From Flavivirga sp. 57AJ16 (GTDB lineage Bacteria; Bacteroidota; Bacteroidia; Flavobacteriales; Flavobacteriaceae): a DNA stretch of 64,000 nt. The DNA is taken from NCBI RefSeq assembly GCF_028736925.1, contig NZ_JAQZAT010000002.1:310001-374000 (forward strand), written 5' to 3'. How positions within the stretch are numbered: the stretch's first letter is position 1; each line of letters starts with the position of its first letter. The notes beneath the pieces are model-generated. The model saw only the letters and a list, made by a program, of their open reading frames with translations, did no database searches and had not been told where the DNA came from. Shown piece by piece: positions 1 to 19,402 of this stretch. A program made the translations under genes and the position numbers.

Positions 1-465
1 GCCTTTATTATTCTGGATGAGCCTACAAATGGTTTGGACCCTAATCAGATCATAGAAATTCGTAAACTCATCAAGGAAATTGCAGAAGATCGTGCGGTTT
101 TATTGTCTACACACATGCTTACAGAAGTACAAGCTATTTGTGATTATATATATATGATAGAGCATGGTAAAATGGTTTTTTCAGGAAAGATAGAAGATTT
201 TGATAGCTATTTAACTCCCAATACCATATTTGCTAGATTACTTGAAATGCCCTCTGTTGAGTCTCTAAAGCAAAATCTAGAGGGATTAGAGCACGTGGAA
301 GAAATGGGAGGGCCAAACTATCGATTAACATTTAACAATTTAAATGGTGCAACAGAACGGATTGTTATATCAAGTGTCAAAAACAATTGGCGACTGGATG
401 AAGTTCGAGCTGAGAAGAATTCAATGAACGACGTGTTCTCAGCATTATCAAAAAAAGAAAATTAA
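1..465 (+). CDS. ABC transporter ATP-binding protein, GldA-like (5' end outside window)
   Basis: This is the C-terminal half of an ABC ATPase whose start lies before base 1. The frame is open from base 1 and opens with the Walker B segment FIILDEPTNGLDP, followed by the H-loop LSTHMLTE. The Walker A and LSGG motifs must lie upstream. The rest matches the C-terminal region of GldA-type ATPases and resembles the complete paralogue at 16159-17088 over its whole length. The stop is 4 bases before the permease gene, so the two form one operon and presumably one transporter: this protein would hydrolyse ATP on the cytoplasmic face. The substrate is unknown. The TTG at base 34 is not the real start, because the Walker B motif lies in front of it. 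Confidence 0.93.
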   Translation, partial: AFIILDEPTNGLDPNQIIEIRKLIKEIAEDRAVLLSTHMLTEVQAICDYIYMIEHGKMVFSGKIEDFDSYLTPNTIFARLLEMPSVESLKQNLEGLEHVEEMGGPNYRLTFNNLNGATERIVISSVKNNWRLDEVRAEKNSMNDVFSALSKKEN

Positions 466-469
466 GCTT

Positions 470-2803
470 ATGAAAATGATATTGAAAATAGCGAGAATGG
501 AACTGCAAAAATTGTTTTATTCTCCAATAGCATGGTTGATTCTGATAATTTTCAGCATTCAATCTGGCATAGCTCTTATGGACATGATTAGTAACTATGT
601 AAGAAGTGCATCTTTAGGATACAATAATAGTAATATAACATTTAATATTTTTTCAGGTCCATACGGAGTATTTAGTAGCATTTTAAGAAATCTCTATTTA
701 TACATTCCGCTACTAACTATGGGATTGTTGAGTCGGGAATTTGGTTCTGGCTCCATTAAACTTTTATATTCTTCGCCTATTTCTAACCTGCAAATTGTTT
801 TGGGGAAATTTGTTTCCATGATGATTGTTGGCCTAGCTATGGTATTAATCATATTTACAGAGGTATTGTTAGGGGTTCCGGCTGTTAAGGATTTTGATTT
901 GCCTTTGGTATTAACGGGAATATTGGGAATATATTTAGTAATATGTACATACGCAGCTATAGGGCTTTTTATGTCCTCTTTAACGACCTATCAAATAGTA
1001 GCAGCTATAGGGACTTTTGCAACATTATTTGTTTTGGGTCAGGTAAAAGATGTATGGCAAGATGTGGAGTTTGTTAGGGATATTACTTATTGGTTATCAA
1101 TAAGTGGTAGATCGGGAACCTTAATTAATGGCCTTATATGTAGTGAAGACCTTCTGTATTTTATACTCGTTACGGGGTTATTTATTGCCTTTACGCTGTT
1201 CCGTTTAAAAGGTCTTAGGGAAAAAAGCCCCAGTTATATTTCTTTTGCACGGTATTTAGGTGCCTTTTCAATAGTAGCTGCCATTGGTTATGTTAGCACG
1301 CTTCCTTCCTTAATGGCCTATTATGACTCTAGTCGTACCAAGATGAATACCCTAACAGAGAACAGTCAGGAAGTGATATCGAAGTTAAAAGGCAAAATAG
1401 AATTGACCACCTATGTTAACATATTCGATCGGTTTTATTCTTTTGGCGCACCCATCGCACAAAAGCGCGATATGGATCGGTATAAGCAATACAGTAGATT
1501 TTATCCTAATATGGAATTCAGCTATAAATATTATTATGCACTTCCTATTGATGAGCGTTCATTAAAAAGTCATCAGAGTCGATACGAAGGTCTTACAGAG
1601 GAGCAAACGCTTGAAAAAGTATGTGATATTTATGATGTTAATACAAATAAATTTAAACCGGCCACAGCTTATGCCGAGGAGATAGATTTGAAGGTGGAAT
1701 TAAACCGTATGGTAACTACTATAAAAACTGAAGACGGAAAAAAAATCAACCTACGTTTATTTGATGACCAAATGGTTTATCCGGACGAGTCACAAATAAC
1801 AGCGGCTTTTAAAAACCTGGTAGCTGATTTGCCTGTAGTGGGCTTTGTTAAAGGGCATGGAGAAAGAGATGTTAACGATTATGGTTCTCGAGGATATTTC
1901 ACAATAACAGAGCAAAAACCTTTCCGTTATGCTTTAAAAAATAATGGATTCGATTTTAAAGAATGTGAACTCTACGTTCCTGTCCCAAAAAATATCAATA
2001 TTCTGGTTATTGCAGATGTAAAGACATCATTTTCAGATAAAGAGTTGCAGAATTTGACTAATTATATCAATCGTGGCGGTAATTTAATTATAGCTTGTGA
2101 TTTGAAGCGTCAGGAAAATATGAATCCGCTTGTAGATCAGTTTGGTGTTACATTTATGGACGGACAAATAGTTGAGCATAACAAAAATTATACATTAGAT
2201 TTGGTGACGGCCCAACCTACCAAATCTGCTAAAGAATTAATGTATCATTTTTCCCAGTTGTCCGATAGAGGGGGTGTTGTTAGCATGAATGGCGTCGTAG
2301 GTATTTCCTATAAAGAAAAAAAGGGATATAGTTATACGCCAATATTGACTTCAGATGTTGTGGAACAACAAAAAGCATTAGACTCTTTAGGTTCTTGGAA
2401 CGAATTGCAAACAACAGATTTTATTGATGATGTGCCTCAATATAATCCTGAAACAGGAGAAACGCTAGGGGCATTAACCACGGCATTGGCAGTAACCAGA
2501 CAAGTTAATGGCAAAGAGCAAAAGATTATGATTCTTGGAGATGCTGACTGTTTGAGCAATGGCGAATTAATGCAACAAAGAACAGGTTTTTTTGCGATGA
2601 ATTATAGTATGGTAGCGGGCATGTTTTATTGGCTATCAGATAATGAAGTGCCTATAGACGTTAGGAGGCCTACCCCGCCAGATGATAAAATATATTTAAA
2701 TAAAGACGATGTTGGCATCCTTAAGATTCTATATAAAGTCATTATTCCTTCTTTGTTGGCATTATGCTTCTTATTTATTTGGCTGCGCAGAAAAGGCCGT
2801 TAG
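470..2803 (+). CDS. GldF-GldG fusion-type ABC transporter permease/auxiliary protein
   Basis: This 777-residue protein joins two gliding-type ABC subunits. Residues about 1-245 are a GldF-like ABC-2 permease: an amphipathic start (ARMELQKLFYSPIAW) and about six membrane segments. From about residue 255 it becomes GldG-like: a membrane anchor, a large extracytoplasmic ABC-transporter auxiliary domain (including the conserved EITAAFK-type stretch and PVVGFVKGHGERD), and a last membrane helix near residues 750-770 followed by RRKGR. In flavobacterial gliding genes gldF and gldG are usually separate, and GldA/F/G support gliding or type IX secretion. This one is probably a paralogue with another cargo, since it sits beside MutS-like and SusCD genes. 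A second full paralogue lies at 17117-19402. Confidence 0.9.
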   Translation: MKMILKIARMELQKLFYSPIAWLILIIFSIQSGIALMDMISNYVRSASLGYNNSNITFNIFSGPYGVFSSILRNLYLYIPLLTMGLLSREFGSGSIKLLYSSPISNLQIVLGKFVSMMIVGLAMVLIIFTEVLLGVPAVKDFDLPLVLTGILGIYLVICTYAAIGLFMSSLTTYQIVAAIGTFATLFVLGQVKDVWQDVEFVRDITYWLSISGRSGTLINGLICSEDLLYFILVTGLFIAFTLFRLKGLREKSPSYISFARYLGAFSIVAAIGYVSTLPSLMAYYDSSRTKMNTLTENSQEVISKLKGKIELTTYVNIFDRFYSFGAPIAQKRDMDRYKQYSRFYPNMEFSYKYYYALPIDERSLKSHQSRYEGLTEEQTLEKVCDIYDVNTNKFKPATAYAEEIDLKVELNRMVTTIKTEDGKKINLRLFDDQMVYPDESQITAAFKNLVADLPVVGFVKGHGERDVNDYGSRGYFTITEQKPFRYALKNNGFDFKECELYVPVPKNINILVIADVKTSFSDKELQNLTNYINRGGNLIIACDLKRQENMNPLVDQFGVTFMDGQIVEHNKNYTLDLVTAQPTKSAKELMYHFSQLSDRGGVVSMNGVVGISYKEKKGYSYTPILTSDVVEQQKALDSLGSWNELQTTDFIDDVPQYNPETGETLGALTTALAVTRQVNGKEQKIMILGDADCLSNGELMQQRTGFFAMNYSMVAGMFYWLSDNEVPIDVRRPTPPDDKIYLNKDDVGILKILYKVIIPSLLALCFLFIWLRRKGR

Positions 2804-2815
2804 TAATATGTTTTA

Positions 2816-2851
2816 GAACGTACGTGGTAAAACTTTTTACCACGTACGTTC
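2816..2851. terminator. 17-bp perfect inverted repeat, probable terminator
   Basis: Arms 2816-2832 and 2835-2851 are perfectly complementary (5' arm GAACGTACGTGGTAAAA), with A and T runs at the tip. It follows the GldFG stop by 12 bases and precedes the MutS-like pair. No T tract follows the 3' arm, so a role in mRNA 3'-end formation or processing is as likely as intrinsic termination. Confidence 0.6.
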
Positions 2852-2876
2852 ACTTAAAAAATTGAATGATTAATCT

Positions 2877-4208
2877 ATGGCATTTAAAGCAGACAACCAG
2901 ACGATCAACGACCTTCGGATTATTGGCCAGGGCAAGGGGAACGATATCTATAGCTTGTTCAACAAGACCAAGACCCGAGGAGGCGCAAAAATCCTCAAGG
3001 ACATGTTTATGTACCCCCGTTCCCGGGCCGATGAAATCACCCATAGGGTAAACACGATCAAATATTTTAAAGAAGAGGGCACTGTATTTCCTTTCAACAA
3101 TGCCATTTTCGACACCATTGAGCTTTATTTGGGCGATACCGACGAACGTACCCGGCTTGTGACCCATTCAGACGGTGTAAAGCGTAAATTCGATCATATT
3201 ATAGGAGCAGATGCCCATTACCAACAAATCAGTAAAGGTGTTTCAGACACGCTTCAGTTCCTTATTGATTTAAACAGGTTTGTTGCCACCAAGGGAAACA
3301 AGCCAATAAAGGAGGACCTACATAAAGACATGGGTGCGGTAAAGGCCATTCTTGATACGCCACCAATAGTATTTATAAAAAGTATGGAAAAAGTTGGCAA
3401 ACGTTCCTATGCCAAAACGGTAGAGTACGACCAGTTGTTCCGTTTCACGATTAGAAAGGATATTCTAAAACTGCTCCATTATGCCTATGAAGTAGATGTT
3501 TTCATAGCGGTAGCAGAAGTCGCCCAAAACCTGGGCCTTACTTTTGCAGAGATCGAGAATGGGAAAAACAACATTATAGAGATGAAAGGCGTGTACCACC
3601 CGCTGGTACCGGGAGCGGTCGCCAACGACATTGTTATCACCGAGGAGAACAACATGGTTTTTTTGACCGGTGCCAACATGGCGGGCAAGTCCACCTTTAT
3701 GAAAACCTTCGGGATTGCCGTGTACCTGGCACATGTCGGTTTTCCCGTTCCGGCAAAACGAATGCGCTTGAGCATGCAAAACGGCATGTTCACCACTATA
3801 AACCTAGCAGATAACTTAAATATGGGCTTCAGCCATTTCTATGCCGAGGTTTCCCGGGTCAAGAAAGTGGCAGAAGCCGTAAACGGCAACGAGCGCTTGA
3901 TCGTGGTCTTTGACGAGCTCTTTAGGGGCACCAACGTAAAGGATGCCTATGAAGCTACAGTTGCAGTAGTAGGTGCCCTTGCCAACAAGCGCAAGTGTAC
4001 GTTCATTATTTCCACCCATATCATTGAAGCAGGCGCGGATTTAAAGGTCATGAAGGACAATATAAGGTTCCTGTACCTGCCAACGGTGATGAGAGGGACT
4101 AGGCCCGAATATACCTATACGCTTAAAGAGGGCATAACCAGCGATCGCCATGGGATGCTCATCATAGAAAATGAAAAGATCTTGGACATTTTAAAAACCG
4201 ATGCATAA
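2877..4208 (+). CDS. Short MutS-like ATPase, copy 1
   Basis: This is a 443-residue MutS-family protein. It has the lever/core region and the C-terminal ATPase, but lacks the N-terminal mismatch-recognition domain of true MutS (about 850 residues). The Walker A motif is GANMAGKST (residues 265-273). The NLNMGFSHFYAEV stretch corresponds to the MutS signature region. Walker B is LIVVFDEL (341-348), and H381 sits in FIISTHI. It has no signal peptide, so it is cytoplasmic. It overlaps the next gene by one base (TAATG), which implies translational coupling, and probably a heterodimer of the two paralogues, as MutS ATPase domains act as dimers. Its substrate is unknown. Mismatch repair is unlikely given the missing domain and the transporter/peptidase neighbours. 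Confidence 0.88.
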   Translation: MAFKADNQTINDLRIIGQGKGNDIYSLFNKTKTRGGAKILKDMFMYPRSRADEITHRVNTIKYFKEEGTVFPFNNAIFDTIELYLGDTDERTRLVTHSDGVKRKFDHIIGADAHYQQISKGVSDTLQFLIDLNRFVATKGNKPIKEDLHKDMGAVKAILDTPPIVFIKSMEKVGKRSYAKTVEYDQLFRFTIRKDILKLLHYAYEVDVFIAVAEVAQNLGLTFAEIENGKNNIIEMKGVYHPLVPGAVANDIVITEENNMVFLTGANMAGKSTFMKTFGIAVYLAHVGFPVPAKRMRLSMQNGMFTTINLADNLNMGFSHFYAEVSRVKKVAEAVNGNERLIVVFDELFRGTNVKDAYEATVAVVGALANKRKCTFIISTHIIEAGADLKVMKDNIRFLYLPTVMRGTRPEYTYTLKEGITSDRHGMLIIENEKILDILKTDA

Positions 4209-5536
4209 TGGAATTTGTAACCGATAAACAGACCTTGGACGACTTGAACATTTTAGGTAAATATAAAAACAATTCCATATTCAGTTTGTTTAACCGCACC
4301 GTGACCACGGGAGGGAGCTGGCTGTTGGAAAAAATGTTCCAGAACCCTTTTACGACAACAGAAGATATCAATAAGCGGGCAAAAGTATTTGCTTTTTTCC
4401 AGAAGATAAATGTTTCGCTGCCCTTTACTGCAGGAGAATTTGAAATCGTGGAGAACTATATCCGCAATGCGGAAACCAAAAACAGGCTTGTAGCCGCTTT
4501 TAATATTTCAAGAAGCCGTTTGTCAAATTACATTGCCAACGAGAAAGAGTACCCGGTACTACGGGAAGGCCTGGAGAAGAGCATAGCAGTGTTCTCAAAG
4601 TTAAAAGGATTGATAAAAACGATTGGAGAACAGTCAAACGACACCCCTTACCGGGAAAAAGTAAAAAAGATACAGGACTTATTAAGCAATAAACATTTTG
4701 ATCTGGCATATGGGTGCATTGGCATAAGCCCTTTGCCCTATAAAAAAGTTTTGCAACTGGATTATATCTTCAGGGGCTTATTAAATGAACAGCTTGAAGA
4801 TTTATTAAAAGAGCTTTATGAACTCGATGTGTACATCACGGTATCCAATGTTTCAAAAGAAAATGGCTTTGTCTATCCCCAAGCGGAGGATAAGGAAGAA
4901 CAATATATGAACATCAAAGGGCTTTACCACCCCAGTATCCCGAATGCCATTGCCAATGACGTACATATAGGAAAGGAACAGAACGTGTTCTTTTTGACCG
5001 GTGCAAACATGGCCGGGAAATCGACCCTTATGAAGTCCTTCGGAGTGGCGGTCTACCTGGCGCACATGGGCTTTCCGGTGGCGGCAAAAGAGATGACGTT
5101 TTCATTGCACGATGGCATATACACCTCCATCAATGTTCCGGACGACATTACCCAGGGCCACAGCCATTTTTATGCAGAGGTACTGCGCGTAAAGCATGTG
5201 GCTGAAGAAGTCGCTACCAACAAGCAATTAGTGGTCATTTTTGATGAACTATTTAAAGGCACGAATGTCAAGGACGCCTCAGACGGGACCATTGCCATAG
5301 TGGATGCTTTTTCCAAAAGGGATGGAACGTTTATCATATCCACCCACATCATGGAAGCAGGGGAATCACTTAGAAAGAGCAACGACAAGTTGTTCTTTAG
5401 GTACCTGCCAACGGTGGTAAAGGGAAGGGTACCGACATATCCCTATATTTTGGAAGACGGGATCACCGATGATAGGCAAGGCATGATGATCATTGAAAAC
5501 GAAGGGATTATTGATATAATCAATGGTAATCAATAA
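4208..5536 (+). CDS. Short MutS-like ATPase, copy 2
   Basis: A 442-residue paralogue of the preceding gene, recognisable along its length: both begin with a DxQTxxDLxIxGxxKxNxIxSLFN pattern. It keeps Walker A (GANMAGKST), the signature stretch (DDITQGHSHFYAEV), Walker B (LVVIFDELFKGTN) and the switch histidine in FIISTHI, so both copies look ATPase-competent. As in copy 1, the N-terminal mismatch-binding domain is absent. The start ATG overlaps the upstream TAA by one base. The central region (residues about 90-200) differs strongly from copy 1, so the pair probably has distinct partner or ligand surfaces. The process served is unknown. The M16 peptidase follows after 134 bases. Confidence 0.87.
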   Translation: MEFVTDKQTLDDLNILGKYKNNSIFSLFNRTVTTGGSWLLEKMFQNPFTTTEDINKRAKVFAFFQKINVSLPFTAGEFEIVENYIRNAETKNRLVAAFNISRSRLSNYIANEKEYPVLREGLEKSIAVFSKLKGLIKTIGEQSNDTPYREKVKKIQDLLSNKHFDLAYGCIGISPLPYKKVLQLDYIFRGLLNEQLEDLLKELYELDVYITVSNVSKENGFVYPQAEDKEEQYMNIKGLYHPSIPNAIANDVHIGKEQNVFFLTGANMAGKSTLMKSFGVAVYLAHMGFPVAAKEMTFSLHDGIYTSINVPDDITQGHSHFYAEVLRVKHVAEEVATNKQLVVIFDELFKGTNVKDASDGTIAIVDAFSKRDGTFIISTHIMEAGESLRKSNDKLFFRYLPTVVKGRVPTYPYILEDGITDDRQGMMIIENEGIIDIINGNQ

Positions 5537-5670: not shown

Positions 5671-8484
5671 ATGAAGCGTATTTTAATTTTCACTTTTTCA
5701 TTACTTATGGTGTTTGGCCATAAAGGTTTTACGCAACCACTGGATTATAATGAAAAATTACCAGTAGATAAAACCATAAAAAAAGGCGTGCTACCCAATG
5801 GCATGACCTATTATATAAAGAGTACCGATGTGGTAAAGGATGCCGCCAGTTATTACATCATCCAGAACGTGGGCTCGATATTGGAGGACGACGACCAAAG
5901 GGGTCTGGCCCATTTTCTGGAGCACATGGCCTTCAACGGGACGGAAAATTTCCCGGGCAAGGGCATCTTGAACACCCTGCAGGAGCACGGGGCGGTATTC
6001 GGCAAGGACATCAATGCGTACACCGCTTTTGATGAGACGGTGTACAACCTGAACAACATCCCCACCAAAGAAGGCCTGGTCGATACCTGTTTGGCCGTTC
6101 TAAGGGATTGGTCAAATTACCTGTTGTTAACAGATGGGGAGATCGATGCGGAGCGCGGAGTTATAAAGGAAGAGTGGCGCACCCGGCAAAACGGCCAGAT
6201 GCGCCTTTACCAAACATCGATGCCAATAACATATAATGACTCAAAGTATTCCCGGCGCATGCCCATTGGGCTGATGTCGATAGTGGAAAACTTTGAATAC
6301 AAGGCACTTCGCGATTTCTATCACGACTGGTACCGAACCGATCTGCAGGCCATAGCTGTAATAGGCGACATCGATGTAGACGGGGTCGAGCAGAAAATCA
6401 TAGAAAGATTCTCAAAAATTCCAGCTGTAGAAAATCCAAGAGAACGGTTTGAGGTCAATATTCCAGATAATGAAGAGATGCTGTACAGTTTGGGAACGGA
6501 TCCCGAGGTGTCCTCCGCATCCATAAGCTTTGGCATCCGCCATAAAAAAAGCCAGCACCCGGAAACCATTGAAACGCTAAAGCAACAGTTGTTAAGGTCT
6601 GTGGCAATAAGTGCCATATCATCTAGAATTTCAGAACAGGCCCAAAAACCAGAAGCCCCATTTTTAGGGGCAAGGGTAGGTTACGGTCCCTTGTCCAGAA
6701 CATCCAATGTTTTTTCGATCTCAGTAAGCCCTAAAGAAAACCAGCAAAAAGAAGCTTTTGAGGCCGTTTTGACCGAAGTTGTCAGGGCCGTGAAATTTGG
6801 GTATACACAATCGGAGATCAATAGGGCCATTGCCCAAATAAAAAGCACATACGAGAATCAAATTGCCAAAAAGGACAATATAGGCCATGGACAAATTGAA
6901 CGTGCTATTCAAGGTAATTATCTAGAAAACAAAACCATTACAGATGTTGAAAAGGAGTATGAAATAGTGGCACAGTTGATTCCAGATATCACACCAGATA
7001 AACTGCACCAGGCCATAAAAAGAATATATGCCCAAAAGAACAGGTATTTAAATGTAACAGGAGTAGAAAAGCAAGATAATTTAACAGAAAAAGAAGCTAA
7101 ACAAATTATCGCCCTTGTGGAAAACAATAACAGCCTAAAACCATATTCAGAAGATATGGAAGGAAAGAACCTAATGTCTGGAACAGCTATTAAAAAAGGA
7201 ACGATTTTAGAAGAAACATCAAATACCGATTTGGGGTCTACCACATTTGTACTGGACAATGGGGTAAAGGTACATTACAGGTTTGTGGACAAAGACAAAG
7301 ATAATGTAGCCCTATACGCTACGAGCTATGGAGGGATGTCACTTTTAGCTGATGCCGACCTGCCCTCTGCAAGTTTAATGGGGAACCTGATTTCAATGTC
7401 CGGATTGGGCGATTTCCCGGCAACAGACCTAAGAAAGGTCTTGGCAGGAAAAACGGCCAATGTCAAGATCGGTTTGGGAGGTATTTCAGAGAGTATTTCA
7501 GGAGCTTCAAATACAAAAGATGTCGAGACCATGCTGCAAATGGTGCACCTGTATTTTGTAAAGCCCCGTTTCGATGAGCAAGCCTTTCAAGTTTTAAACA
7601 GCAACATAAGCAACTATATAACACGAAGAAGCCAAGATATAAATGAAAAAATGAAAGACAGCCTAACAGTTGCAATATATGGGGAGAACAACCCTAAAAG
7701 CCACCTGTTCAATCAGGAATATGCAGATAAGGTTTCATTCGAAGGGATCGAAAAGATTTACAGGGAACGTTTTGCGGATGCCTCCGATTTTGAGTTTTTT
7801 ATAGTGGGCGATGTCAAGGAAAACGATTTAAAACCCCTCTTGGAAAAGTATCTGGCCAGTATTCCTACAAACAACATCCATGAGCAATATAAAGATAATG
7901 GAGCCGAATGGATTTCGGACAATATCGATAAGGACATTTTTTTTAAAATGGAAGACCCAAAAGCCTCTGTAAATATTTCCTATAAAAAAGAAATTCCCCA
8001 TTCAATTAAAAACAGCATTTGCACAAAAGCACTGGGGGACATTTTACAATTGAGGGTGACGGAAACCATAAGGGAAGAAGCTGGAGGGGCCTATAGCCCA
8101 AGGGTATCGGCAAGCTTATCACGCGAACCAAGACCAGTGGCCTATGTTAACTTTAGTTTTGACTGTAATCCGGATCTAGCAGATAAATTAACAAAAATAG
8201 CCAAGAAGGAATTACAAAACATTGCAAATGGTAATATTAAAGAAGAAGATTTAAATAAAGTTAAGACAAACTTTATAAAAGAGCGAGAACAGTCAAAAGA
8301 CAGAAATAGTTATGACATGGCATTGCTTACCAACTTCTTTATGTACAATTATAATATTGATGATCCCAAAAATTTTGAGGACATCGTAAATGGGATGACC
8401 GCTAGGGACGTTCAGGAAATGGCGGGCAAGATTTTAAACGGCGCACAAACCTATGAGATCGTGTTCAAGCCTTTAAAGCAGTAA
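5671..8484 (+). CDS. Secreted M16 (insulinase-type) zinc metallopeptidase
   Basis: A 937-residue insulinase/pitrilysin-family peptidase. Residues 1-21 form a signal peptide ending FTQ, so the enzyme is periplasmic or surface-facing. The inverted zinc motif H81-FLE-H85 and the distal ligand E161 (in ERGVIKEEW, 76 residues after H85) are intact, so the N-terminal lobe should be active. A second M16 C-terminal domain pair from about residue 500 lacks the motif, as usual for the non-catalytic half of a single-chain clamshell. Such enzymes cut peptides short enough to enter the chamber. Its place between the MutS-like pair and a SusCD system suggests trimming of a peptide ligand; that is inference. 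The first third is visibly more GC-rich than later parts. Confidence 0.93.
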   Translation: MKRILIFTFSLLMVFGHKGFTQPLDYNEKLPVDKTIKKGVLPNGMTYYIKSTDVVKDAASYYIIQNVGSILEDDDQRGLAHFLEHMAFNGTENFPGKGILNTLQEHGAVFGKDINAYTAFDETVYNLNNIPTKEGLVDTCLAVLRDWSNYLLLTDGEIDAERGVIKEEWRTRQNGQMRLYQTSMPITYNDSKYSRRMPIGLMSIVENFEYKALRDFYHDWYRTDLQAIAVIGDIDVDGVEQKIIERFSKIPAVENPRERFEVNIPDNEEMLYSLGTDPEVSSASISFGIRHKKSQHPETIETLKQQLLRSVAISAISSRISEQAQKPEAPFLGARVGYGPLSRTSNVFSISVSPKENQQKEAFEAVLTEVVRAVKFGYTQSEINRAIAQIKSTYENQIAKKDNIGHGQIERAIQGNYLENKTITDVEKEYEIVAQLIPDITPDKLHQAIKRIYAQKNRYLNVTGVEKQDNLTEKEAKQIIALVENNNSLKPYSEDMEGKNLMSGTAIKKGTILEETSNTDLGSTTFVLDNGVKVHYRFVDKDKDNVALYATSYGGMSLLADADLPSASLMGNLISMSGLGDFPATDLRKVLAGKTANVKIGLGGISESISGASNTKDVETMLQMVHLYFVKPRFDEQAFQVLNSNISNYITRRSQDINEKMKDSLTVAIYGENNPKSHLFNQEYADKVSFEGIEKIYRERFADASDFEFFIVGDVKENDLKPLLEKYLASIPTNNIHEQYKDNGAEWISDNIDKDIFFKMEDPKASVNISYKKEIPHSIKNSICTKALGDILQLRVTETIREEAGGAYSPRVSASLSREPRPVAYVNFSFDCNPDLADKLTKIAKKELQNIANGNIKEEDLNKVKTNFIKEREQSKDRNSYDMALLTNFFMYNYNIDDPKNFEDIVNGMTARDVQEMAGKILNGAQTYEIVFKPLKQ

Positions 8485-11387: not shown

Positions 11388-14300
11388 ATGAAAATTAAAT
11401 TAACCAATGCCTGTTTTCTTAGTAGAAGACAGCTTTTAATGATTATGATGAAAACCTTCATTTTCCTCTGTTGTTTATCGGTGTTCAGTATGACACCAAC
11501 ACGTATCTTATCTCAAAACGTGAAGATTAAAATTGCAGCCGATAAGGTGTTGACCGTTGATGAGGTATTCGACCTAATCATGAACCAAACCGACTACAAA
11601 TTCATTTACCAGGAAGGGATTTTTAAAGAATTTCCCCATGTTGCGGTAAATAAAGGGATTATAACAGCGAGCAGGTTGTTGCAGAAAAGCATTGCCGATA
11701 AAGACCTCAATGTCATTTTAACCACTAATAACACCATCATCATCAAATTAAAATCGTTGAGTAATGACCAACAAATACAGGTATCGGGTAAAGTGACCGA
11801 CGAAAAAGGCCTTGGTATTCCTGGCGCTACCGTGTTTATTAAAGGTACCGCTAGAGGTACAGCCACCAACTTGGACGGTTATTATACCATTGATATCCCC
11901 TTTGCAGAAAATGTTTTAGTATTCTCTGCCCTAGGCTTTACTACAGAAGAAGTGATGGTGGGCAATCAAAATACAATCGACATAACCTTAAAAGAAAATA
12001 TAGATGAACTGGGTGAAGTAACTATCAACGCAGGTTATTATACAACTTCCCAAAAAACAGCTACCGGAAGTATTTCTAAAATTACGGCTGAAGAGATTGA
12101 AAAACAACCCGTTACAGATGTGTTGCAGACTCTTAGAAACCGAATTCCCGGCCTACAAGTTACCCCAAGAAGTGGGACTTACGGGTCGGCGCCAGATATT
12201 CAGGTACGTGGTAGAAACTCCATCGCTGCCGGTACTATGCCACTTATTCTATTGGATGGTGTTCCTATTCAATCCAGTATCAATACTATTGGTTCACAAT
12301 CCCTAGATGGTTCCGCCTTTAGTCTCTTGCTTAATCTTAACCCTTCCGATATTGATGAAATCAATGTACTTAAAGATTCAGATGCTACATCATTATATGG
12401 GTCACGTGGTGCCAACGGTGTTATATTAATAACCACTAAAAAATCTAACGTCTCTGGATTGCAGTTAAGTGTGAATACTTACACCGGGATTCAGGAATTG
12501 CCCCATCGTGTAGAGTATCTAAACGCAGAACAATACCAGGATATGCGATACGAAGCTTTGGCCAATGACGATTTAACACCGTCCACGAGCAATGCAGCCG
12601 ATCTATTGGACTGGGATACCTCTAATGTTACCGATTGGCAGGAACTCTTTTTAGGAAAGACCAATATTACGAAAGATTTGAACGTCTCCTTAAAAGGTGG
12701 TAGCGAAACCACCCATTTCTATTTAAATGCCGGTTACCATGACGAAGGTTCCATATCTCCCGGCGATCGTAGTTTAATTCGAAAAAGCATCCGCGGTAAT
12801 ATTAACCACATATCCTTAGATCGTAGATTCCAATTGGATTTGGCTATGGCTTATGGTATTTCCAATGTCGATTTGAACCAACAAAACTTGGTTAACTCAA
12901 CCGACTTAGCACCTTATTACCCCATTTACGACAATAATGGCGCCCCCAATTGGTCAGCGGCAGGGTTTAGGGGCTTCCCTTTGGCTTATAGTATGCAACC
13001 TTTTAACAGCGACTCTAAAAACTACAGTGGTAATTTAAGTATGAGTTATGAGCTGTTCAAAAACTTTACAGTGGCTTTAACTTCTGGATTTAACAGCACC
13101 ACTAGCGATCAAATACTAATTCAGCCCACACCATCTTTAGATCCTAATGGATTCTTCAACACAGGATCGGCCCAATATGGTAATTACGATAACAATACCT
13201 GGATTATGGAGCCTCAATTGAAATATGAACTCAACCTTGGTATTCACAAACTTAATTTTCTAGTGGGTTCTACCTTTCAAAACGTTTTTACAGAATCCTT
13301 TTCTGCCACGGGACGCGATTATCCTAACGATGCTTTGCTTTACAATTTGGGCTCAGCAGGAAGTGTTTCCAATCTGGGTGGAACTACCAGTGAGTACAAC
13401 TATGCCTCCGTGTTTAGTAGGGTGTCTTATAATTACGCCAACAAGTATTTGGTAAATGCCAATTTTAGACGTGATGGATCGTCTAAATTCGGTCCAGGCA
13501 ACCGTTTTGGTAATTTTGGTTCCCTTGCAGCCGCCTGGGTATTTAGCGAAGAGACTTTCTTTCCTACAGGTAAAGTCTTTACCTTCGGAAAACTCCGTGG
13601 TAGTTATGGTATTAGCGGTAACGATCAGATTCCTGATTATGGTTATTTATCCAGTTACTCCAGTATCTCATCTGGATCCTTGGCCTATAACGGTGTGGCG
13701 CTGTCCCCTAGTGGCCTGTCCAATCCCAACTTTCGATGGGAAGAATCTAAAAAAACAGAACTTGCCATCGAAACGGGTTTCCTAAATAACCGTGTTCAAT
13801 TAAATGTAAATTACTTTAAAAGCAAGTCCGATAACCAACTGATCAGTTACAGCTTTTCACCACAATCGGGATTTACTAGTTTTCAGGCCAATTTCCCTGC
13901 TACTGTAGAGAATACAGGATTTGAAATTACTTTAAACACTACCAACGTTAAAACCCAAAATGTAAGGTGGACTACCAACCTCACCTTGTCCAAAAGCAAA
14001 AACAAAATAGCTCGGTTTGACGGTATTGAAAATACTTTCTATGCATCTCAATACGCTGTAGGTGAATCCTTAAGCGTGCGTAAAGCCTATGTTTTTGAAG
14101 GTTTGGACAATACCGGAGTTCCCGTATACACTGATTTGGACGATAGCGGAAGTATTAACGGTGAGGACAGAGTCATTATTGGAGATAGCGACCCCTTGTA
14201 CGGCGGCATACAAAACAACATCACTTATAAAAATTGGGACTTAGGATTCTTTATAGATTATACCCGTGTTAATGAATTTAGAAACTTCATTCCCGCCAGC

Positions 14301-14672
14301 CGTATAGGGCGGTTAAATATTAATACCACAACGTTCTTTTTAGATCGCTGGCAACAACCGGGCGATGAACTAACCACTAACATCCCGAAGTTTACAACCA
14401 GTAGTCGTACTTACAACGCACGGTTCTTCTCTCAATCATCATTATGGTGGGTGACCGAAAATATTTTTAGGCTGAGTAACGTATCCCTGGCATACAATCT
14501 GCCAAAGAGACTTATGAGCGATTTACATTTGGAGAGTGCCAAGTTGTACCTAAACGCCCAAAACGTATTTGTGTTTGACAAATACCGTGATCAGCGTTAC
14601 GATCCCTTAACAGGAAATGGTGTTGTACCGCCATTACGTACTATTGTTTTAGGAATCAATCTTAATCTTTAA
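11388..14672 (+). CDS. SusC/RagA-type TonB-dependent receptor with STN signalling domain
   Basis: A 1094-residue outer-membrane transporter. A long signal peptide ends near residue 43. Next comes an STN (secretin/TonB short N-terminal) domain at about 44-122, the hallmark of receptors that signal to FecR. Then come a carboxypeptidase-regulatory-like beta domain at about 132-205 (GKVTDEKGLGIPGATVFIKG), a plug domain (QVRGRNSIAAGTMPLILLDG, then LKDSDATSLYGSRGANGVILITTKK), and a beta-barrel to the C-terminal aromatic-rich end. With the SusD 10 bases downstream it should form a pedal-bin importer. The FecI/FecR pair upstream is its likely regulator. Such pairs import glycans or oligopeptides; the adjacent peptidase makes a peptide plausible. 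Confidence 0.95.
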   Translation: MKIKLTNACFLSRRQLLMIMMKTFIFLCCLSVFSMTPTRILSQNVKIKIAADKVLTVDEVFDLIMNQTDYKFIYQEGIFKEFPHVAVNKGIITASRLLQKSIADKDLNVILTTNNTIIIKLKSLSNDQQIQVSGKVTDEKGLGIPGATVFIKGTARGTATNLDGYYTIDIPFAENVLVFSALGFTTEEVMVGNQNTIDITLKENIDELGEVTINAGYYTTSQKTATGSISKITAEEIEKQPVTDVLQTLRNRIPGLQVTPRSGTYGSAPDIQVRGRNSIAAGTMPLILLDGVPIQSSINTIGSQSLDGSAFSLLLNLNPSDIDEINVLKDSDATSLYGSRGANGVILITTKKSNVSGLQLSVNTYTGIQELPHRVEYLNAEQYQDMRYEALANDDLTPSTSNAADLLDWDTSNVTDWQELFLGKTNITKDLNVSLKGGSETTHFYLNAGYHDEGSISPGDRSLIRKSIRGNINHISLDRRFQLDLAMAYGISNVDLNQQNLVNSTDLAPYYPIYDNNGAPNWSAAGFRGFPLAYSMQPFNSDSKNYSGNLSMSYELFKNFTVALTSGFNSTTSDQILIQPTPSLDPNGFFNTGSAQYGNYDNNTWIMEPQLKYELNLGIHKLNFLVGSTFQNVFTESFSATGRDYPNDALLYNLGSAGSVSNLGGTTSEYNYASVFSRVSYNYANKYLVNANFRRDGSSKFGPGNRFGNFGSLAAAWVFSEETFFPTGKVFTFGKLRGSYGISGNDQIPDYGYLSSYSSISSGSLAYNGVALSPSGLSNPNFRWEESKKTELAIETGFLNNRVQLNVNYFKSKSDNQLISYSFSPQSGFTSFQANFPATVENTGFEITLNTTNVKTQNVRWTTNLTLSKSKNKIARFDGIENTFYASQYAVGESLSVRKAYVFEGLDNTGVPVYTDLDDSGSINGEDRVIIGDSDPLYGGIQNNITYKNWDLGFFIDYTRVNEFRNFIPASRIGRLNINTTTFFLDRWQQPGDELTTNIPKFTTSSRTYNARFFSQSSLWWVTENIFRLSNVSLAYNLPKRLMSDLHLESAKLYLNAQNVFVFDKYRDQRYDPLTGNGVVPPLRTIVLGINLNL

Positions 14673-14682
14673 AAATAATATC

Positions 14683-16074
14683 ATGCAATATATAAAACAC
14701 ATCGCAGTACTTTCCGTAAGAAATGTGCTTATCCTATGTTTACTTGCTTTGTTAGCAGTGTCTTGTGAAGAATTTGTGGACACCCAATTTCCTGTTGATA
14801 AGATATCAGAAGAACAAGTATTCGAAAATAATGAAAGTCTAGTAAGTGCCTTGCGTTCCGTATATGGAAGACTTGCAAACGGGGCTTCTTTAATAGAAAT
14901 TTATCCGGTCTTATTTGCCGATGAGCTGATTGTTACCAATGCCGGTGGCAGTACGCAAGAAGCACAAGAAAATTCGTATAGCGATGCTACCGATTACGGT
15001 TATTTTAGCTATTTGTACAATGCCATTTACAGTGCGAATGCCATTTTAAAGAATTTGGAAAACCCTAGTCCCAAGCTATCGACTGATGTGGTGAATCAGG
15101 TGTTGGGAGAAACCTTTTTTTTAAGAGCTTACAGCTACTTTTTACTCGTTAACTTTTATGGCGATGTTCCCTATATAACCGAAACTGATCCTTACATTAG
15201 CGGTTTACAACCCAGAGATACCGAGGCATTTGTTTACGAAAACATAGAACAGGACTTATTGGATGCCCTCACGTATTTAGACAATACCTATCCCGAAACC
15301 GGCAAATTCAGGATCAACAGCCACGTTGTCAAAACCCTGCTGGCCAAAGTATACCTGTATCAGGAAGAATGGAGTTCTGCCGAAAGTTATGCGACTCAGG
15401 TTATCAGTGCCCCAGAATATGAACTGGAACCGGATTTATTGGATGTATTTACTGCGGGGAGCACAGAAACGCTTTGGCAGTTTTGGAACGAGAATAATTA
15501 TGTAAATATCACTGCTTCCTACGTGCCTTTTGATGTTACCAACGTGTTTTACAGATTACGCCCCACCTTAGTGAATTCCTTTGAGGCAGAAGACCAAAGA
15601 CTGGATGTATGGATTGGAGAAGGCACCGATTTAAACACCAATACAAGTGTTTACTTTCCATACAAATACCGTTTGCGCAATGCAGATGCTAACAGAACAG
15701 AATTTTTAATCCTGTTCCGATTGGCAGAATTGTATCTTATAAGGTCTGAAGCTAATGCCAATCTCGATACTCCTGCCTCTTTGGAAGCTGCTGTAGATGA
15801 TTTGGAAACCATACGATTACGGGCCGGTATTAGCACGCCGTTAATCGCTTCTACAAAAACGGAAGTCTTAAATGTAGTTTATACCGAGCGTCGTCACGAA
15901 CTCATGTTTGAGAATGCCAACCGTTGGTTTGATTTAATCCGCACAGACCGTGCTACCACTGTGCTATCTGCTATTAAACCCAATTTTAAATTGTTTACAA
16001 CAAAGTTGCCCATTCCCAATGCCATTTTGGAGAAAAACCCAAATTTAGAACAGACCACGGGCTACAATAACTAA
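14683..16074 (+). CDS. SusD/RagB-type surface lipoprotein
   Basis: A 463-residue SusD-family ligand-binding lipoprotein. The lipobox LAVSC puts the lipidated cysteine at residue 28, so the protein is anchored to the outer membrane and caps the SusC barrel encoded 10 bases upstream. The TPR-like SusD fold is seen in the segments VSALRSVYGRLANG, LGETFFLRAYSYFLLVNFYGDVPYI and, near the end, RLAELYLIRSEANANL and VYTERRHELMFENANRWFDLIRT. The protein is shorter than typical glycan SusDs (500-550 residues), nearer to the size of RagB-like members. A hairpin and the second ABC module follow. Confidence 0.94.
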   Translation: MQYIKHIAVLSVRNVLILCLLALLAVSCEEFVDTQFPVDKISEEQVFENNESLVSALRSVYGRLANGASLIEIYPVLFADELIVTNAGGSTQEAQENSYSDATDYGYFSYLYNAIYSANAILKNLENPSPKLSTDVVNQVLGETFFLRAYSYFLLVNFYGDVPYITETDPYISGLQPRDTEAFVYENIEQDLLDALTYLDNTYPETGKFRINSHVVKTLLAKVYLYQEEWSSAESYATQVISAPEYELEPDLLDVFTAGSTETLWQFWNENNYVNITASYVPFDVTNVFYRLRPTLVNSFEAEDQRLDVWIGEGTDLNTNTSVYFPYKYRLRNADANRTEFLILFRLAELYLIRSEANANLDTPASLEAAVDDLETIRLRAGISTPLIASTKTEVLNVVYTERRHELMFENANRWFDLIRTDRATTVLSAIKPNFKLFTTKLPIPNAILEKNPNLEQTTGYNN

Positions 16075-16158: not shown

Positions 16159-17088
16159 ATGAGTGAGTCTATAATAAAGGTTCAGGGATTATCGCATCGA
16201 TATTCTAAATCCTGGGCTATAAAAGACATTAATTTTGAAATCAAAACCCATGGTATTCTTGGCCTTTTAGGTTCCAACGGTGCCGGTAAGTCAACTACCA
16301 TGAATATCATGTGTGGGGTGTTGAACCAAACAGAAGGAAAAGTGTTTATTGATGGTGTGGATATGCAAACCAACCGTCAGGAAGCCAAAAAACTTATTGG
16401 GTTTTTACCACAAAATGCCCCTTTGTACCACGACTTGACTGTCGATGAGTATTTGATCTACACCGCTAATTTAAGATTAATTTCCCATGAGAAGATTGCC
16501 GAAGCCGTGGAAGTGGCTAAGCATAAATGCGGTATTAGTCATTTTAGTAAACGTCTCATTAAAAACCTGTCCGGAGGGTATCGTCAGCGTGTTGGTATTG
16601 CTCAGGCTATTATCCACAACCCCAAAATAGTGGTGTTGGACGAACCAACCAATGGTCTGGATCCCAACCAAATCCTGGAAGTACGAAAACTGATGAAGTC
16701 CATCGCGCAAGAACGCGCCGTTATTCTGTCTACCCACATCCTCCCTGAAGTTCAGGCCACCTGTGACGAGATTCGGATGATAGACCACGGGAGGATGGTG
16801 TTTAGTGGTACCATGGCGTCCTTTAACAATTATATCCAGTCCAACACCTTGTTAATACAATTGACTAAACTTCCTAATATAGAAGCTTTATCAAATCTGG
16901 AAGGCATTTCAAAAGTAGAAACCCTACCACATCATTTTTATAGACTAGATATTGACACGAAAGACGCCGACCGCATCGAGCAAATCGTTGCTACTAGTGT
17001 TTCCAAAGGTTGGGGGGTTCAGGAAGTCGTTAAAGAAAAAGTGTCTCTGGAAGAAATCTTTGCCCAACTCTCCGTTAAACAATCTTAA
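16159..17088 (+). CDS. ABC transporter ATP-binding protein, GldA-like
   Basis: A complete 309-residue ABC ATPase: Walker A GSNGAGKST (38-46), Q-loop near GFLPQNAPL (81-89), signature LSGGY (137-141), Walker B IVVLDEP (157-163) and the H-loop histidine H193 (STHILPE). The size and the long C-terminal regulatory tail (about 220-309) match GldA-type ATPases. The fused GldFG permease follows after 28 bases, so together they form one transporter. It is a clear paralogue of the partial gene at the start of the window. The two modules therefore bracket the MutS/M16/SusCD genes. Confidence 0.93.
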   Translation: MSESIIKVQGLSHRYSKSWAIKDINFEIKTHGILGLLGSNGAGKSTTMNIMCGVLNQTEGKVFIDGVDMQTNRQEAKKLIGFLPQNAPLYHDLTVDEYLIYTANLRLISHEKIAEAVEVAKHKCGISHFSKRLIKNLSGGYRQRVGIAQAIIHNPKIVVLDEPTNGLDPNQILEVRKLMKSIAQERAVILSTHILPEVQATCDEIRMIDHGRMVFSGTMASFNNYIQSNTLLIQLTKLPNIEALSNLEGISKVETLPHHFYRLDIDTKDADRIEQIVATSVSKGWGVQEVVKEKVSLEEIFAQLSVKQS

Positions 17089-17116
17089 AGCATTAAAAAT
17101 AAACAACATAAATACA

Positions 17117-19402
17117 ATGAAGCGAATATTTAAAATAGCAAAACTCGACCTTAACCTATGGTTTTATTCTCCTGTGGCCTGGTTAATTCTAACCGTATTT
17201 TTTATACAAATAGGTGTGAAGTTTAATGAGTTGTTTGAAGTCTATAGCAAGGGAGAGTTTTTAGGAAGACAGTACACTAATTTAACACAAATTATTTTTG
17301 TACAGGATTGGGGGCTTTTTAGAAGCATTCAACAGAATTTATATTTATTTATCCCCCTTTTAACCATGGGACTCTTAAGTAGGGAGTATAGCCAAGGTAC
17401 TATTAAGTTATTATTATCTTCTCCAGTTAAGATATTACAAATTGTTATGGGCAAATTTTCGGCCATGGTTATATATGGTTTTCTAATGATGTTTATGTTA
17501 CTGCTTTTTGTGGTTATTGCTAATTTTTGGATATTGAACATGGATTGGGGATTGGTGCTCTCTGGTATGCTTGGGCTTTTTCTTGTGATTTGCGCTTATG
17601 CATCCATTGGCATTTTTATGTCCAGTTTAACCTCCTATCAAGTGGTGGCAGCTATTAGCACGTTATTAACATTGGGTGTTTTGAATTATGTGGGGCAAAT
17701 ATGGCAAGACATTCGATTTGTGAGTGATATTACCTATTTTCTGTCCATTTCAGGCAGAGCTGACGAGTTTATCCTAGGATTGATTACCACCAAAGATATC
17801 CTGTATTTCATCATCGTCATCACCTTGTTTTTAGGTCTTACCTATCTCAAATTAAAACACAGTACAGAATCCAATACCTTACCTATAAAGTCCGGACAGT
17901 ATGCCTTGCTGGTTACAGTGTTATTACTACTGGGCTATATTATTTCTAAACCACAGTTTATTGGCTATATAGACGCTACCGAAACTAACACACAAACTCT
18001 TACGCCCAATTCCCAGAAAGTGGTGAAGCAGTTACAAGGTAAGCCCATTACTATTACAACCTATGTTAATATTCTAGACTTTTTTAATTATTATAGCGGT
18101 TTGCCGGATCAACGGAATGCCGATTTTTCCCGATTCAAACAATACACCCGATTCTTACCTCAAATAGACATGAAATATGTGTATTATTACGATAAAGGTC
18201 CTTCTAATACCATTTATAAGCGAAATCCGGGATTGAATGATAGAGAACTGGCAAAAAAGATTGCCGAAACCCAAGATCTGGATTTTGATATGTTCCTGTC
18301 ACCTAATAAAATGAAAGCCATTAAAGATCTGGAATCTGAAAATTATACTTTTATTAGGGAAATAAAAGTAGGTGACTCCGCAATCTATTTAAGGGTTTTT
18401 CAAGATCAGATAAAATTTCCGATGGAACAGGAAATCACTGCTGCATTTAAAAGCCTGTTAGTGACCAACCCTGAAGTTGGCTTTTTAACAGGATATAACG
18501 AGCGTTCCCTTAATAAAATAGGTGATAAACATTATGCGTTGCCGACCATTCAAAAGGGGTTCCGTTATGCATTGATCAATCAGGGATTCCGGGTTAAGGA
18601 AGTAATGCCGAATGCAATTAATAAGGATAATATTAGTATTTTGGTAATTGCAGATCCTATTGATAGTTACAGTGATGCCGATATGGAAGCGATTATAGCT
18701 TATTACCAAAGTGGTAAAAATTTGTTGGTGCTAACCGAGCCAGAAAACAGTATCCGTTTAAAACCCTTATTGGATACTTTGGGCGTTACCATTCATAAAA
18801 ATTTTTTAATAACCGACTCCAAAGATGTGTCGCCTTTTGTTTTGAAAACCAAACTTACTGAAAATACTTCCGCATTATCCGAAACTTTCTCAGATTTAGT
18901 AAAAGAGGATACTATCTTTACCATGACCAGGCTTACCGATTTAAAAGTGACTAATCCTGCTTTTAAGACCTTTCCCTTATTACAATCTAAAGCAACCAAT
19001 TTAAAAACCATTGATTCCGTGCCACTAAATACAGAAACCATCGATTTTGAAGCTTTGCCGGAACTGACCCCAGATCATAAAACCACAGCTGTAGGGATGA
19101 CGCGTTTTATAAAGGATAGAACTCAAAAAATTGTGGTAATGTCTGATGCCGATGTATTTAGTAATGGCGAACTTACCCGGAGCAATATACCCCAACAGAA
19201 CTTTAAATTGTTTACGGCTTTATTTAATTGGTTTAGCGATGGTGAATTTCCTATCAATGTGAATCGGGAAACACCTCCGGATAAAAAGCTTACCGTTAGT
19301 AAATCTCAAATAAAATTTATAAATGTAGTGTTGGTTTGGATGGTTCCGATATTTTTGGTCGCCACTTCAATATTTATATTGTTGAGACGTAAAAAGAAAT
19401 AA
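17117..19402 (+). CDS. GldF-GldG fusion-type ABC transporter permease/auxiliary protein, copy 2
   Basis: A 761-residue GldF-GldG fusion. I place the start at the ATG at 17117 (MKRIFKIAKLDLNLWFYSPVAW), because the longer reading upstream overlaps the ATPase gene and adds 55 basic, non-homologous residues. Residues about 1-240 are the ABC-2 permease. From about 255 there is a GldG-like anchor, a large extracytoplasmic domain (SGLPDQRNADFSRFKQYTRF) and a last helix ending LLRRKKK. It aligns along its length with the protein at 470-2803, sharing FYSPxAWLIL, LLxxSSPxxxLQIVxGKF and the terminal RRK. The cargo is unknown. Confidence 0.9.
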   Translation: MKRIFKIAKLDLNLWFYSPVAWLILTVFFIQIGVKFNELFEVYSKGEFLGRQYTNLTQIIFVQDWGLFRSIQQNLYLFIPLLTMGLLSREYSQGTIKLLLSSPVKILQIVMGKFSAMVIYGFLMMFMLLLFVVIANFWILNMDWGLVLSGMLGLFLVICAYASIGIFMSSLTSYQVVAAISTLLTLGVLNYVGQIWQDIRFVSDITYFLSISGRADEFILGLITTKDILYFIIVITLFLGLTYLKLKHSTESNTLPIKSGQYALLVTVLLLLGYIISKPQFIGYIDATETNTQTLTPNSQKVVKQLQGKPITITTYVNILDFFNYYSGLPDQRNADFSRFKQYTRFLPQIDMKYVYYYDKGPSNTIYKRNPGLNDRELAKKIAETQDLDFDMFLSPNKMKAIKDLESENYTFIREIKVGDSAIYLRVFQDQIKFPMEQEITAAFKSLLVTNPEVGFLTGYNERSLNKIGDKHYALPTIQKGFRYALINQGFRVKEVMPNAINKDNISILVIADPIDSYSDADMEAIIAYYQSGKNLLVLTEPENSIRLKPLLDTLGVTIHKNFLITDSKDVSPFVLKTKLTENTSALSETFSDLVKEDTIFTMTRLTDLKVTNPAFKTFPLLQSKATNLKTIDSVPLNTETIDFEALPELTPDHKTTAVGMTRFIKDRTQKIVVMSDADVFSNGELTRSNIPQQNFKLFTALFNWFSDGEFPINVNRETPPDKKLTVSKSQIKFINVVLVWMVPIFLVATSIFILLRRKKK

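Follow-up and report, generated by a model that had tools for sequence, protein, structure and literature searches.

Bacteroidota carry many SusCD operons, which are mostly read as glycan loci. We analyzed a 64,000-nucleotide stretch of the 4.9-Mb genome of Flavivirga sp. 57AJ16 (G000:C12:310001-374000, hereafter the window), and the segment studied, positions 1-19402, contains the 3' portion of one operon (unit 1) and an entire second operon (unit 2). Unit 1 combines the SusC receptor and SusD lipoprotein with a GldA-type ATP-binding cassette (ABC) ATPase, a GldFG fusion permease and two short MutS-like ATPases (MutS1 and MutS2), and this SusCD-GldA-GldFG-MutS set may be an undescribed uptake system, probably one that handles peptides. 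It shares with the SusCD/RagAB loci the SusC-SusD pair, surface lipoproteins (DUF4843, PKD_2, DUF4397 and a group named LPc1) and, frequently, FecI and FecR, but no recurrent glycosidase was found in it, and its operon includes the GldA-GldFG machine and the MutS-like pair.

Among the other described systems, Fus of Pectobacterium and Ydd/PqqL of E. coli also combine a TonB-dependent receptor with a single-chain M16 peptidase of PqqL/FusC type, and Fus/Ydd systems include an ABC transporter, as here. The available text of PMC6793856 describes PqqL and FusC as M16 partners of TonB receptors and treats SusC as a separate, distant family from the FusA/YddB-type receptors; its main text has zero mentions of MutS and of SusD. 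The present set differs from Fus/PqqL in its receptor, which is of the SusC/RagA type and not of the FusA/YddB type, in the presence of SusD, in its optional M16 gene and in the MutS pair. The gliding proteins GldA, GldF and GldG provide a homologous ATPase, permease and GldG-type domain; however, GldF and GldG are fused here, and the proteins of the two units fall far below the gliding equivalog cut-offs (272 and 274 bits against 402.6 for GldA; 85 and 89 bits against 288.5 for GldF). A 558-residue frame of the genome, moreover, gives a strong GldG match of its own, so the GldA and GldFG genes described here do not count as the curated gliding subunits; the first-pass annotation of the sequence had named export or gliding for GldA/F/G. 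NosDFY, which is said to transmit energy to the periplasm, aligns with GldFG in fold only, whereas the machine described here has a GldA-like ATPase and a GIFT/OST48-like domain, and Pfam scanning of both units gave neither NosD nor NosL. A MutS core with its ATPase is used outside mismatch repair in KamC (a lysine 5,6-aminomutase reactivase ATPase, by its NCBIfam name only) and in MutS2, which reportedly acts on ribosomes. In contrast to these, the present proteins are two diverged subunits, or a fusion of them, linked to the ABC and SusCD genes, and both members score below the cut-offs for KamC (115 and 117 bits against 300) and MutS2 (92 and 100 bits against 400). The view that no described system has this gene set held for the open-access literature searched, in which no paper combining MutS, SusD, M16 and FecR, or MutS, GldG and SusC, was found. 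In the accessible text of the open-access papers naming both MutS and SusD, the subjects were an ordinary 894-aa MutS and a mutator mutation, and not this association.

The recurrence of the gene set was examined with a profile search for the pair in a species-level genome collection, in which at least 596 stretches matched and 523 encode a relative. The best 80 loci of these relatives were retained on MutS similarity alone. All 80 encode pairs, 64 in tandem (counting L070, whose second gene is cut by the contig end) and 16 fused in a single polypeptide, and all belong to Bacteroidota (30 Chitinophagaceae, 22 Sphingobacteriaceae, 8 Odoribacteraceae, 2 Flavobacteriaceae and 18 others or unplaced). 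Same-strand SusC was found at 50 of the 53 loci with full flanks (9 kb or more on the upstream side and 8 kb or more on the downstream side), FecR at 44 and M16 at 23. GldA and GldFG were located upstream in 57 of the 68 loci with 4.5 kb of upstream sequence; in L057, L059 and L060, all from Odoribacteraceae, GldFG was not seen by the fused MutS, the contigs of L059 and L060 being only about 7 kb long. The median spacers were 42 bp between SusD and GldA, 12 bp between GldA and GldFG, 8 bp between GldFG and MutS and -4 bp between the MutS genes, and the median SusC-SusD gap was 10.5 bp (68 cases).

Complete pairs were also counted in three whole genomes, and 38 of 39 were in a same-strand cluster with SusC, SusD, GldA and GldFG. 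The gene set accompanied all 10 complete pairs of Pseudoflavitalea sp. G-6-1-2 and all 7 of Chitinophaga arvensicola; one pair is interrupted by an S41 gene, and this census sets aside single MutS genes and two contig-end fragments. All 17 pairs of these two genomes have the order SusC-SusD-(lipoprotein)-GldA-GldFG-MutS-MutS. In Pseudoflavitalea rhizosphaerae (G885), 47 MutS matches represented 22 pairs and 3 unpaired genes, and the set was present at 21 of the 22 pairs, with the order SusC-SusD-GldA-GldFG-MutS in 20 of the 21 pairs read upstream and a reordered set at the 22nd (L177). The four reordered loci L174-L177, where the pair had seemed to be without ABC genes, read MutS1-MutS2-FecI-FecR-SusC-SusD-DUF4843-PKD2-GldA-GldFG; because they carry GldA-GldFG at the opposite end of the cluster, the gene set is kept despite a changed order. 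A supposed variant with a MutS pair but no ABC genes (L078, L091, L097 and L098) was discarded, since GldA-GldFG was found beyond the 10-kb flank, after PKD2; L083 has the order of these loci, but 215 bases of upstream sequence. The genome of P. rhizosphaerae thus holds 22 MutS pairs, and it also has about 36 GldFG-type places, an extreme expansion.

In the genome of the window itself, two further MutS pairs (contigs C50 and C11) each lie beside FecI, FecR, SusCD, GldA, GldFG and M16; on contig C11 (L012) the receptor half and M16 are divergent from the ABC-MutS half. Across 149 genomes of the family, the pair was found only in the window's genome, judged by identity and tandem places, and six others had weaker single matches. 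A draw of 395 genomes of the class showed the MutS pair in the window's genome and in G245, and a single MutS in G854. The prevalence figures from this draw, for MutS and for GldFG, are a lower bound, with at most 2 to 4 candidates scored per genome. Two single short MutS genes, L173 (G854) and L152, were without the gene set.

GldFG was searched in the same 395 genomes, and seven matched, including the window's genome. All seven loci read in the other six carry SusC, SusD, GldA and GldFG, with M16 in three and MutS genes in two, both of G245 and one at a contig edge. MutS-less GldFG fusions with SusCD were found at six loci (L153-L156, L158 and L159) of 11 regions picked by eye, which include the window's own (L163) and leave out the weak below-cut-off matches G547:C40 and G536:C28. 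Of the remaining regions, L160 and L161 have GldFG with SusCD but end at contig edges, L162, where a frame of 809 gives a strong GldG match of canonical type, has no SusCD, and no GldFG was seen in L157, a weak match. These results suggest that the MutS pair was added to a base unit of SusCD, GldA and GldFG. In the GldFG tree the MutS-less copies were scattered, and MutS has therefore been lost or gained several times; the group labeled as MutS-less in this tree wrongly took in four L160/L161 copies. Tandem GldFG-GldFG genes occur in L138, L139, L160, L161, L073 and L076, and also in L178, L195, L196 and L198; the first and second copies of the former six fell in separate clades, as if they formed a heterodimeric permease.

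Among MutS domains, Pfam matched only MutS_III and MutS_V in MutS1 and MutS2. In a profile alignment the pair covers residues 290-763 of the genome's own 893-aa MutS; residues 1-289 are unmatched, as are about 54 residues after residue 509. Judged by the known layout of MutS, the former are probably the mismatch and connector domains and the latter part of the lever/clamp, so the pair, without the mismatch and connector regions and probably without the clamp, looks unfit for DNA repair. Its members scored 120 and 115 bits against a cut-off of 641.7 for the MutS1 mismatch-repair equivalog, and no Smr domain was found in them in the Pfam scan. In 82 pairs (79 of the 80 loci and three from the window's genome), Walker A was intact in all first and all second members, and all four ATPase motifs were present in 77 first and 80 second members. 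The structural model of the fused form (mean predicted local distance difference test, pLDDT, 84.3; predicted template modelling score, pTM, 0.70) matched MutS and MutSbeta chains (Foldseek E from 5e-18). The proteins may act as a cytoplasmic MutS-like switch, as proposed in the first-pass annotation. A quick tree search with 36 pairs and 16 others, in which long branches leave the deep nodes unsure, grouped the pair proteins apart from single short MutS proteins (Shimodaira-Hasegawa approximate likelihood ratio test 99) and mostly separated first from second positions, with the order swapped in L073, L076 and L101. The nearest rows from other genomes were those of Galbibacter, Aestuariibaculum and an assembly of the Bacteroidales. 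Other clades were made up of unpaired MutS-like proteins about 440 aa long, and L152, read with wide flanks, has no SusCD-ABC context. The single short MutS loci L022 and L023 adjoin a gene that resembles dihydroorotase by eye.

The AlphaFold2 model of GldFG (mean pLDDT 89.4, pTM 0.85) matched the N-terminal domain of IFT52 (Foldseek E 1e-6) and the oligosaccharyltransferase chain 6s7t_G (E 2e-5), which we take to be OST48. About 470 residues lie between hydrophobic segments seven and eight, and this part is presumably periplasmic. The GldA proteins scored best, after GldA itself, with DrrA- and lantibiotic-protection-type ATPases.

Next to this machine, the receptors vary. The STN domain (PF07660) was present in 26 of 32 module SusC N-termini, 4 from the window's genome and 28 of the 60 found; Pfam did not report STN in the window's own SusC. 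An extracytoplasmic function (ECF) sigma factor and FecR are present in units 1 and 2. Co-variation was measured as the correlation (rho) of distance matrices across loci (n 46-80 for SusC, SusD, GldA, GldFG and MutS pairs). The data showed values of 0.45-0.78 for GldA, GldFG, MutS1 and MutS2 among themselves and 0.74 for SusC with SusD, and 0.14-0.27 for MutS with SusC or SusD. M16 (n 22-27) gave 0.75 and 0.68 with the MutS proteins, 0.63 with SusC and 0.61 with GldFG. Mean identity was 0.61 for GldA, 0.52 and 0.49 for the MutS proteins, 0.43 for GldFG and 0.28 for SusC and SusD. Among the three MutS modules of the window's genome, GldA was 69-74%, GldFG 57-63%, MutS 69-77% and SusC 29-31% identical, and M16 was 76% identical between two modules and 47% identical with the third. 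In Pseudoflavitalea (9 unfused copies) and C. arvensicola (6 unfused copies) the trend was similar, with identity of 0.51-0.52 for MutS and 0.27-0.30 for SusC. Since the receptors diverge while the ABC-MutS core is conserved, these data point to one machine serving many ligands.

The nature of the ligand was approached through the accessory genes. In 101 gene runs, which include three duplicated loci and truncated contigs, M16 was found in 30, S41 in 4, a DUF5117 met-zincin in 1 and TlpA in 15, the S41 and DUF5117 queries having been taken from these loci. A peptidase or TlpA was present in 44 runs and a recognised peptidase, from three families, in 35. S41 lies between MutS1 and MutS2 in L135, and a Tsp-type S41 lies between the lipoprotein and GldA in L146; of 21 regions in P. 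rhizosphaerae, three have M16 and one has DUF5117. The window's M16 protein matched PDB 9ldy (E 1e-167), PqqL (1e-70) and 6b03 (2e-45). M16 is an optional accessory gene of the system and does not belong to its core, as it occurs at 27 of 70 loci and in 3 of 17 complete copies. Fifty-five unlabelled neighbours, chosen from 93, included a single example each of an S46 peptidase, a POT peptide transporter and a glycoside hydrolase (GH) of family GH2, among the 25 of 66 matched families listed. A peptide-like ligand, as suggested in the first-pass annotation, therefore finds support in the M16, S41, met-zincin and TlpA genes, but a recognised peptidase is limited to 35 of the 101 runs. As regards a ribosomal-peptide precursor, 592 short open reading frames in 357 gaps gave no family in more than two loci among the 12 largest clusters. 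LPc1, a lipoprotein of about 307 aa encoded between SusD and GldA (e.g. L086:5669-6589), occurs at 13 of the 80 loci and in further census copies. It had no Pfam match and, in five sequences read by eye, no HExxH; it matched weakly (E 0.004) TIGR04549, 'substrate import-associated zinc metallohydrolase lipoprotein'.

Together, we tentatively favor a reading in which peptide-like ligands are taken up in a TonB-dependent manner and handled by an ABC machine together with a cytoplasmic heterodimer of MutS-family ATPases. From the families involved, the SusC channel (often with STN), the SusD lid and variable surface lipoproteins would capture an external ligand and, through FecR/FecI signaling, would induce the operon that encodes them. 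The ligand, most likely a peptide or a small modified protein, would enter the periplasm, where, in operons having one, an operon-specific peptidase (M16, S41 or met-zincin) and/or TlpA would trim or reduce it. By their fold, GldA and GldFG may form a NosFY-like ABC machine in which the IFT52/OST48-like domain engages the ligand or its carrier, and cytosolic ATP hydrolysis by GldA-GldFG would power work or translocation at the inner membrane. MutS1 and MutS2 would pair in the cytoplasm as a heterodimer that has two composite ATP sites. Its target would be the ABC machine or the ligand as it emerges, rather than mismatched DNA, and it would serve there as an ATP-driven clamp, chaperone or gate. 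Receptors would diversify around a constant ABC-MutS core, giving a single machine for many ligands. A more specific and rather doubtful version has the MutS1-MutS2 clamp docked on GldA-GldFG, its closure gating or pulling the peptide delivered by SusCD, as a heterodimeric motor of envelope transport. If this were true, the docked motor would be a use of the mismatch-repair fold in transport, and one genome would hold it as 22 pairs, of which 21 have a SusCD to themselves. The set forms a recurrent subclass of SusCD loci in which the inner-membrane ABC machine is fixed and is joined by a presumed MutS-like heterodimer, and it is a candidate for the handling of some SusCD cargo after the outer membrane. 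It also gives a genetic context for GldFG-type transporters and for tests of a role of the MutS fold in transport, and short MutS proteins in Bacteroidota need not be repair proteins.

Several results weigh against peptide uptake by such a machine. The co-variation blocks are not clean, with rho of 0.32-0.35 for SusC/SusD with GldA/GldFG and of 0.40-0.46 for FecR with MutS. The charge of the N-domain is +7 in the window's MutS1 and +3 in MutS2, which is compatible with DNA binding. GldFG resembles NosDFY chains, presumably the membrane subunit NosY, but weakly (Foldseek E 8e-4 at best, template modelling score to the query about 0.2). MutS-less units occur, which means that the base function does not depend on the pair, and 57 of the 101 runs had no peptidase or TlpA recognised by the queries used. 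When SusC was compared with solved structures, all three SusCs tested shared the same best match; because the glycan-type control was among them, the ligand class is not readable from these matches. Finally, L190 of P. rhizosphaerae has ABC, MutS and FecI/FecR genes with no SusCD within about 13 kb upstream, and L054, L058 and L126 showed no SusC within their flanks.

That the genes are neighbors by chance is hardly credible. SusC density is high, with 57 TIGR04056 matches (53 rows over the cut-off) in the window's genome and as many as 287 candidates (30 scored) in an 8.3-Mb genome. However, the linkage at 50 of 53 loci and for 10 of 10, 7 of 7 and 21 of 22 pairs, the reordered sets and the SusC and SusD genes at all seven loci drawn by GldFG led us to reject it; with places treated as independent and an upper-bound SusC density (all SusC candidates counted, 30 scored per genome), the expectation was about 6e-10 for 10 of 10 and 1e-6 for 7 of 7. 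By the refuting condition set in the first-pass annotation, the arrangement was to be regarded as chance if MutS pairs were rarely beside M16 or SusCD; for SusCD the counts show the opposite, at 50 of the 53 loci with full flanks and for 38 of the 39 complete pairs. A role in export or protection, in which SusCD/FecR senses an antimicrobial peptide or a rival's product and GldA/GldFG with MutS expel it or free its target, in analogy with BceAB-type detoxification, is improbable. In its favor, ABC-2 permeases are usually exporters, the next-best scores of GldA are with DrrA- and lantibiotic-protection-type ATPases, peptidases would destroy a peptide too, and many copies with diverged receptors fit an arms race. 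Yet SusCD is an importer family, SusD would be superfluous for protection, and the operon is fixed with a TonB-linked channel. PADLOC gave a weak generic match for MutS1, a generic ATPase for GldA and no match for MutS2, M16, GldFG, DUF4843 or PKD_2, and a defence system was rejected on this ground.

We consider it unlikely that the set is an unusual polysaccharide locus whose GIFT/OST48-like domain handles oligosaccharides. SusCD, the GIFT-like domain with its oligosaccharyltransferase resemblance and the GH2 gene in one neighbour would agree with it, but Pfam scans of units 1 and 2 showed no glycosidase, so these units do not qualify as polysaccharide utilisation loci, and this was the one GH among the 55 neighbours (25 of 66 families listed), whereas M16, S41, met-zincin and S46 peptidases and the POT peptide transporter do occur near the modules. 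The ordinary glycan loci in the same window, moreover, carry GH43 and GH92. Acquisition of iron, haem or a cofactor from a carrier protein or peptide, like the protease-associated import of Fus/PqqL, is likewise not probable. FecI/FecR control is typical of iron systems, although the FecI/FecR-SusC systems of Bacteroidota extend beyond iron. Among named structures, M16 comes nearest to PqqL and then to FusC (6b05 is FusC in the available part of PMC12731061), but it is missing from most copies (present in 27 of 70), and, according to the available text of PMC6793856, Fus/Ydd receptors are not of SusC type and are described in Proteobacteria. It is very unlikely that the pair works on DNA, regulating the receptor genes or switching them by recombination, as in phase variation of SusCD. 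The MutS family, the strong variation of receptors among copies and the positive N-domain charge of the window pair would fit, but the mismatch and connector domains are absent, the gap falls at the probable lever/clamp, the mean N-domain charges over the 82 pairs are near zero (-2.0 and -0.4), and the genome has an ordinary 893-aa MutS. Positions 1-19500 showed no direct repeat of at least 40 bases and five weak inverted pairs (20-27 bases, 74-85% complementary), and MutS co-varies with the ABC genes more than with the receptors.

The layout of the two operons was determined with 12 kb of upstream sequence (L009, whose coordinates are those of the window plus 12000). Unit 1 begins 10.2 kb upstream of the window and spans about 18.7 kb on a single strand, in the order FecI-FecR-SusC-SusD-DUF4843-PKD_2-GldA-GldFG-MutS1-MutS2-M16; the first six genes and the 5' end of GldA precede the window. 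The 3' part of GldA is at 1..465 (+) (whole gene L009:11536-12465, 309 aa; TIGR03522, 272 bits against 402.6), followed by GldFG at 470..2803 (+), with an ABC-2 permease, a large, presumably periplasmic GIFT/OST48-like domain and a C-terminal transmembrane segment (8 hydrophobic segments; AlphaFold2 model). MutS1 (443 aa, domains III and V only by Pfam) is at 2877..4208 (+), and the second member (442 aa), for which MutS2 is a label only and not the MutS2 family, is at 4208..5536 (+), its start codon overlapping the MutS1 stop. The single-chain, PqqL/FusC-like M16 peptidase at 5671..8484 (+), recognised by Pfam and structure-database matches, has a signal-peptide-like N-terminus and an intact active site (HFLEH at residue 81, ERGVIKEE at residue 161), as first described.

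Unit 2 (9058-19402) has the order FecI-FecR-SusC-SusD-GldA-GldFG and no MutS. By Pfam, the FecI-type ECF sigma factor is at 9058..9636 (-) and the FecR anti-sigma factor at 9769..10989 (+) (PF04773 and PF16344 over cut-off); both genes of the proposed FecI/FecR control are thus present, but FecI is divergent from FecR. The SusC/RagA TonB-linked receptor at 11388..14672 (+) (TIGR04056, 696 bits against 368) has an N-terminal extension that aligns to STN-bearing relatives. The SusD-family surface lipoprotein is at 14683..16074 (+) (SusD-like_3 and SusD_RagB over cut-off, lipobox-like AVSC), the GldA-type ATPase at 16159..17088 (+) (Pfam, NCBIfam) and GldFG (Pfam; 761 aa) at 17117..19402 (+), with no MutS pair after it. 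GldFG probably starts at ATG 17117 and not at the upstream TTG 16952, as its N-terminus then resembles the unit 1 copy. The MutS-like pair, M16, FecI/FecR, SusCD, GldA and GldFG genes of the first-pass annotation were all found by Pfam with open frames. Two of its further points were revised: there is no bracket of exporters around the MutS pair, as each GldFG is part of its own neighboring operon, and the unit 2 GldFG is not a recent duplicate, being 39% identical to the unit 1 copy. Recent duplication as the origin of the bracket was rejected, because the unit 1 GldFG is 57% and 63% identical to the other two MutS-linked copies of this genome and because positions 1-19500 hold no direct repeat of at least 40 bases.

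Just downstream of unit 2, window positions 21377-23282 (+) encode an MbnP-family protein and then a di-haem MauG-type peroxidase; with an unlabelled gene at 23260-24249, they resemble what we take to be an MbnP/MbnH-type pair. Positions 30905-61149 hold ordinary glycan loci, which comprise a hybrid two-component regulator, SusC/SusD with GH43 and aldose epimerase, GH92 and an L-type lectin with a CHU_C secretion signal. On contig C11 of the same genome, the MutS pair has a Cas9 gene some 4 kb away (L013:726-5390, minus strand; 1553 aa, with HNH_4, RuvC_III and bridge helix).

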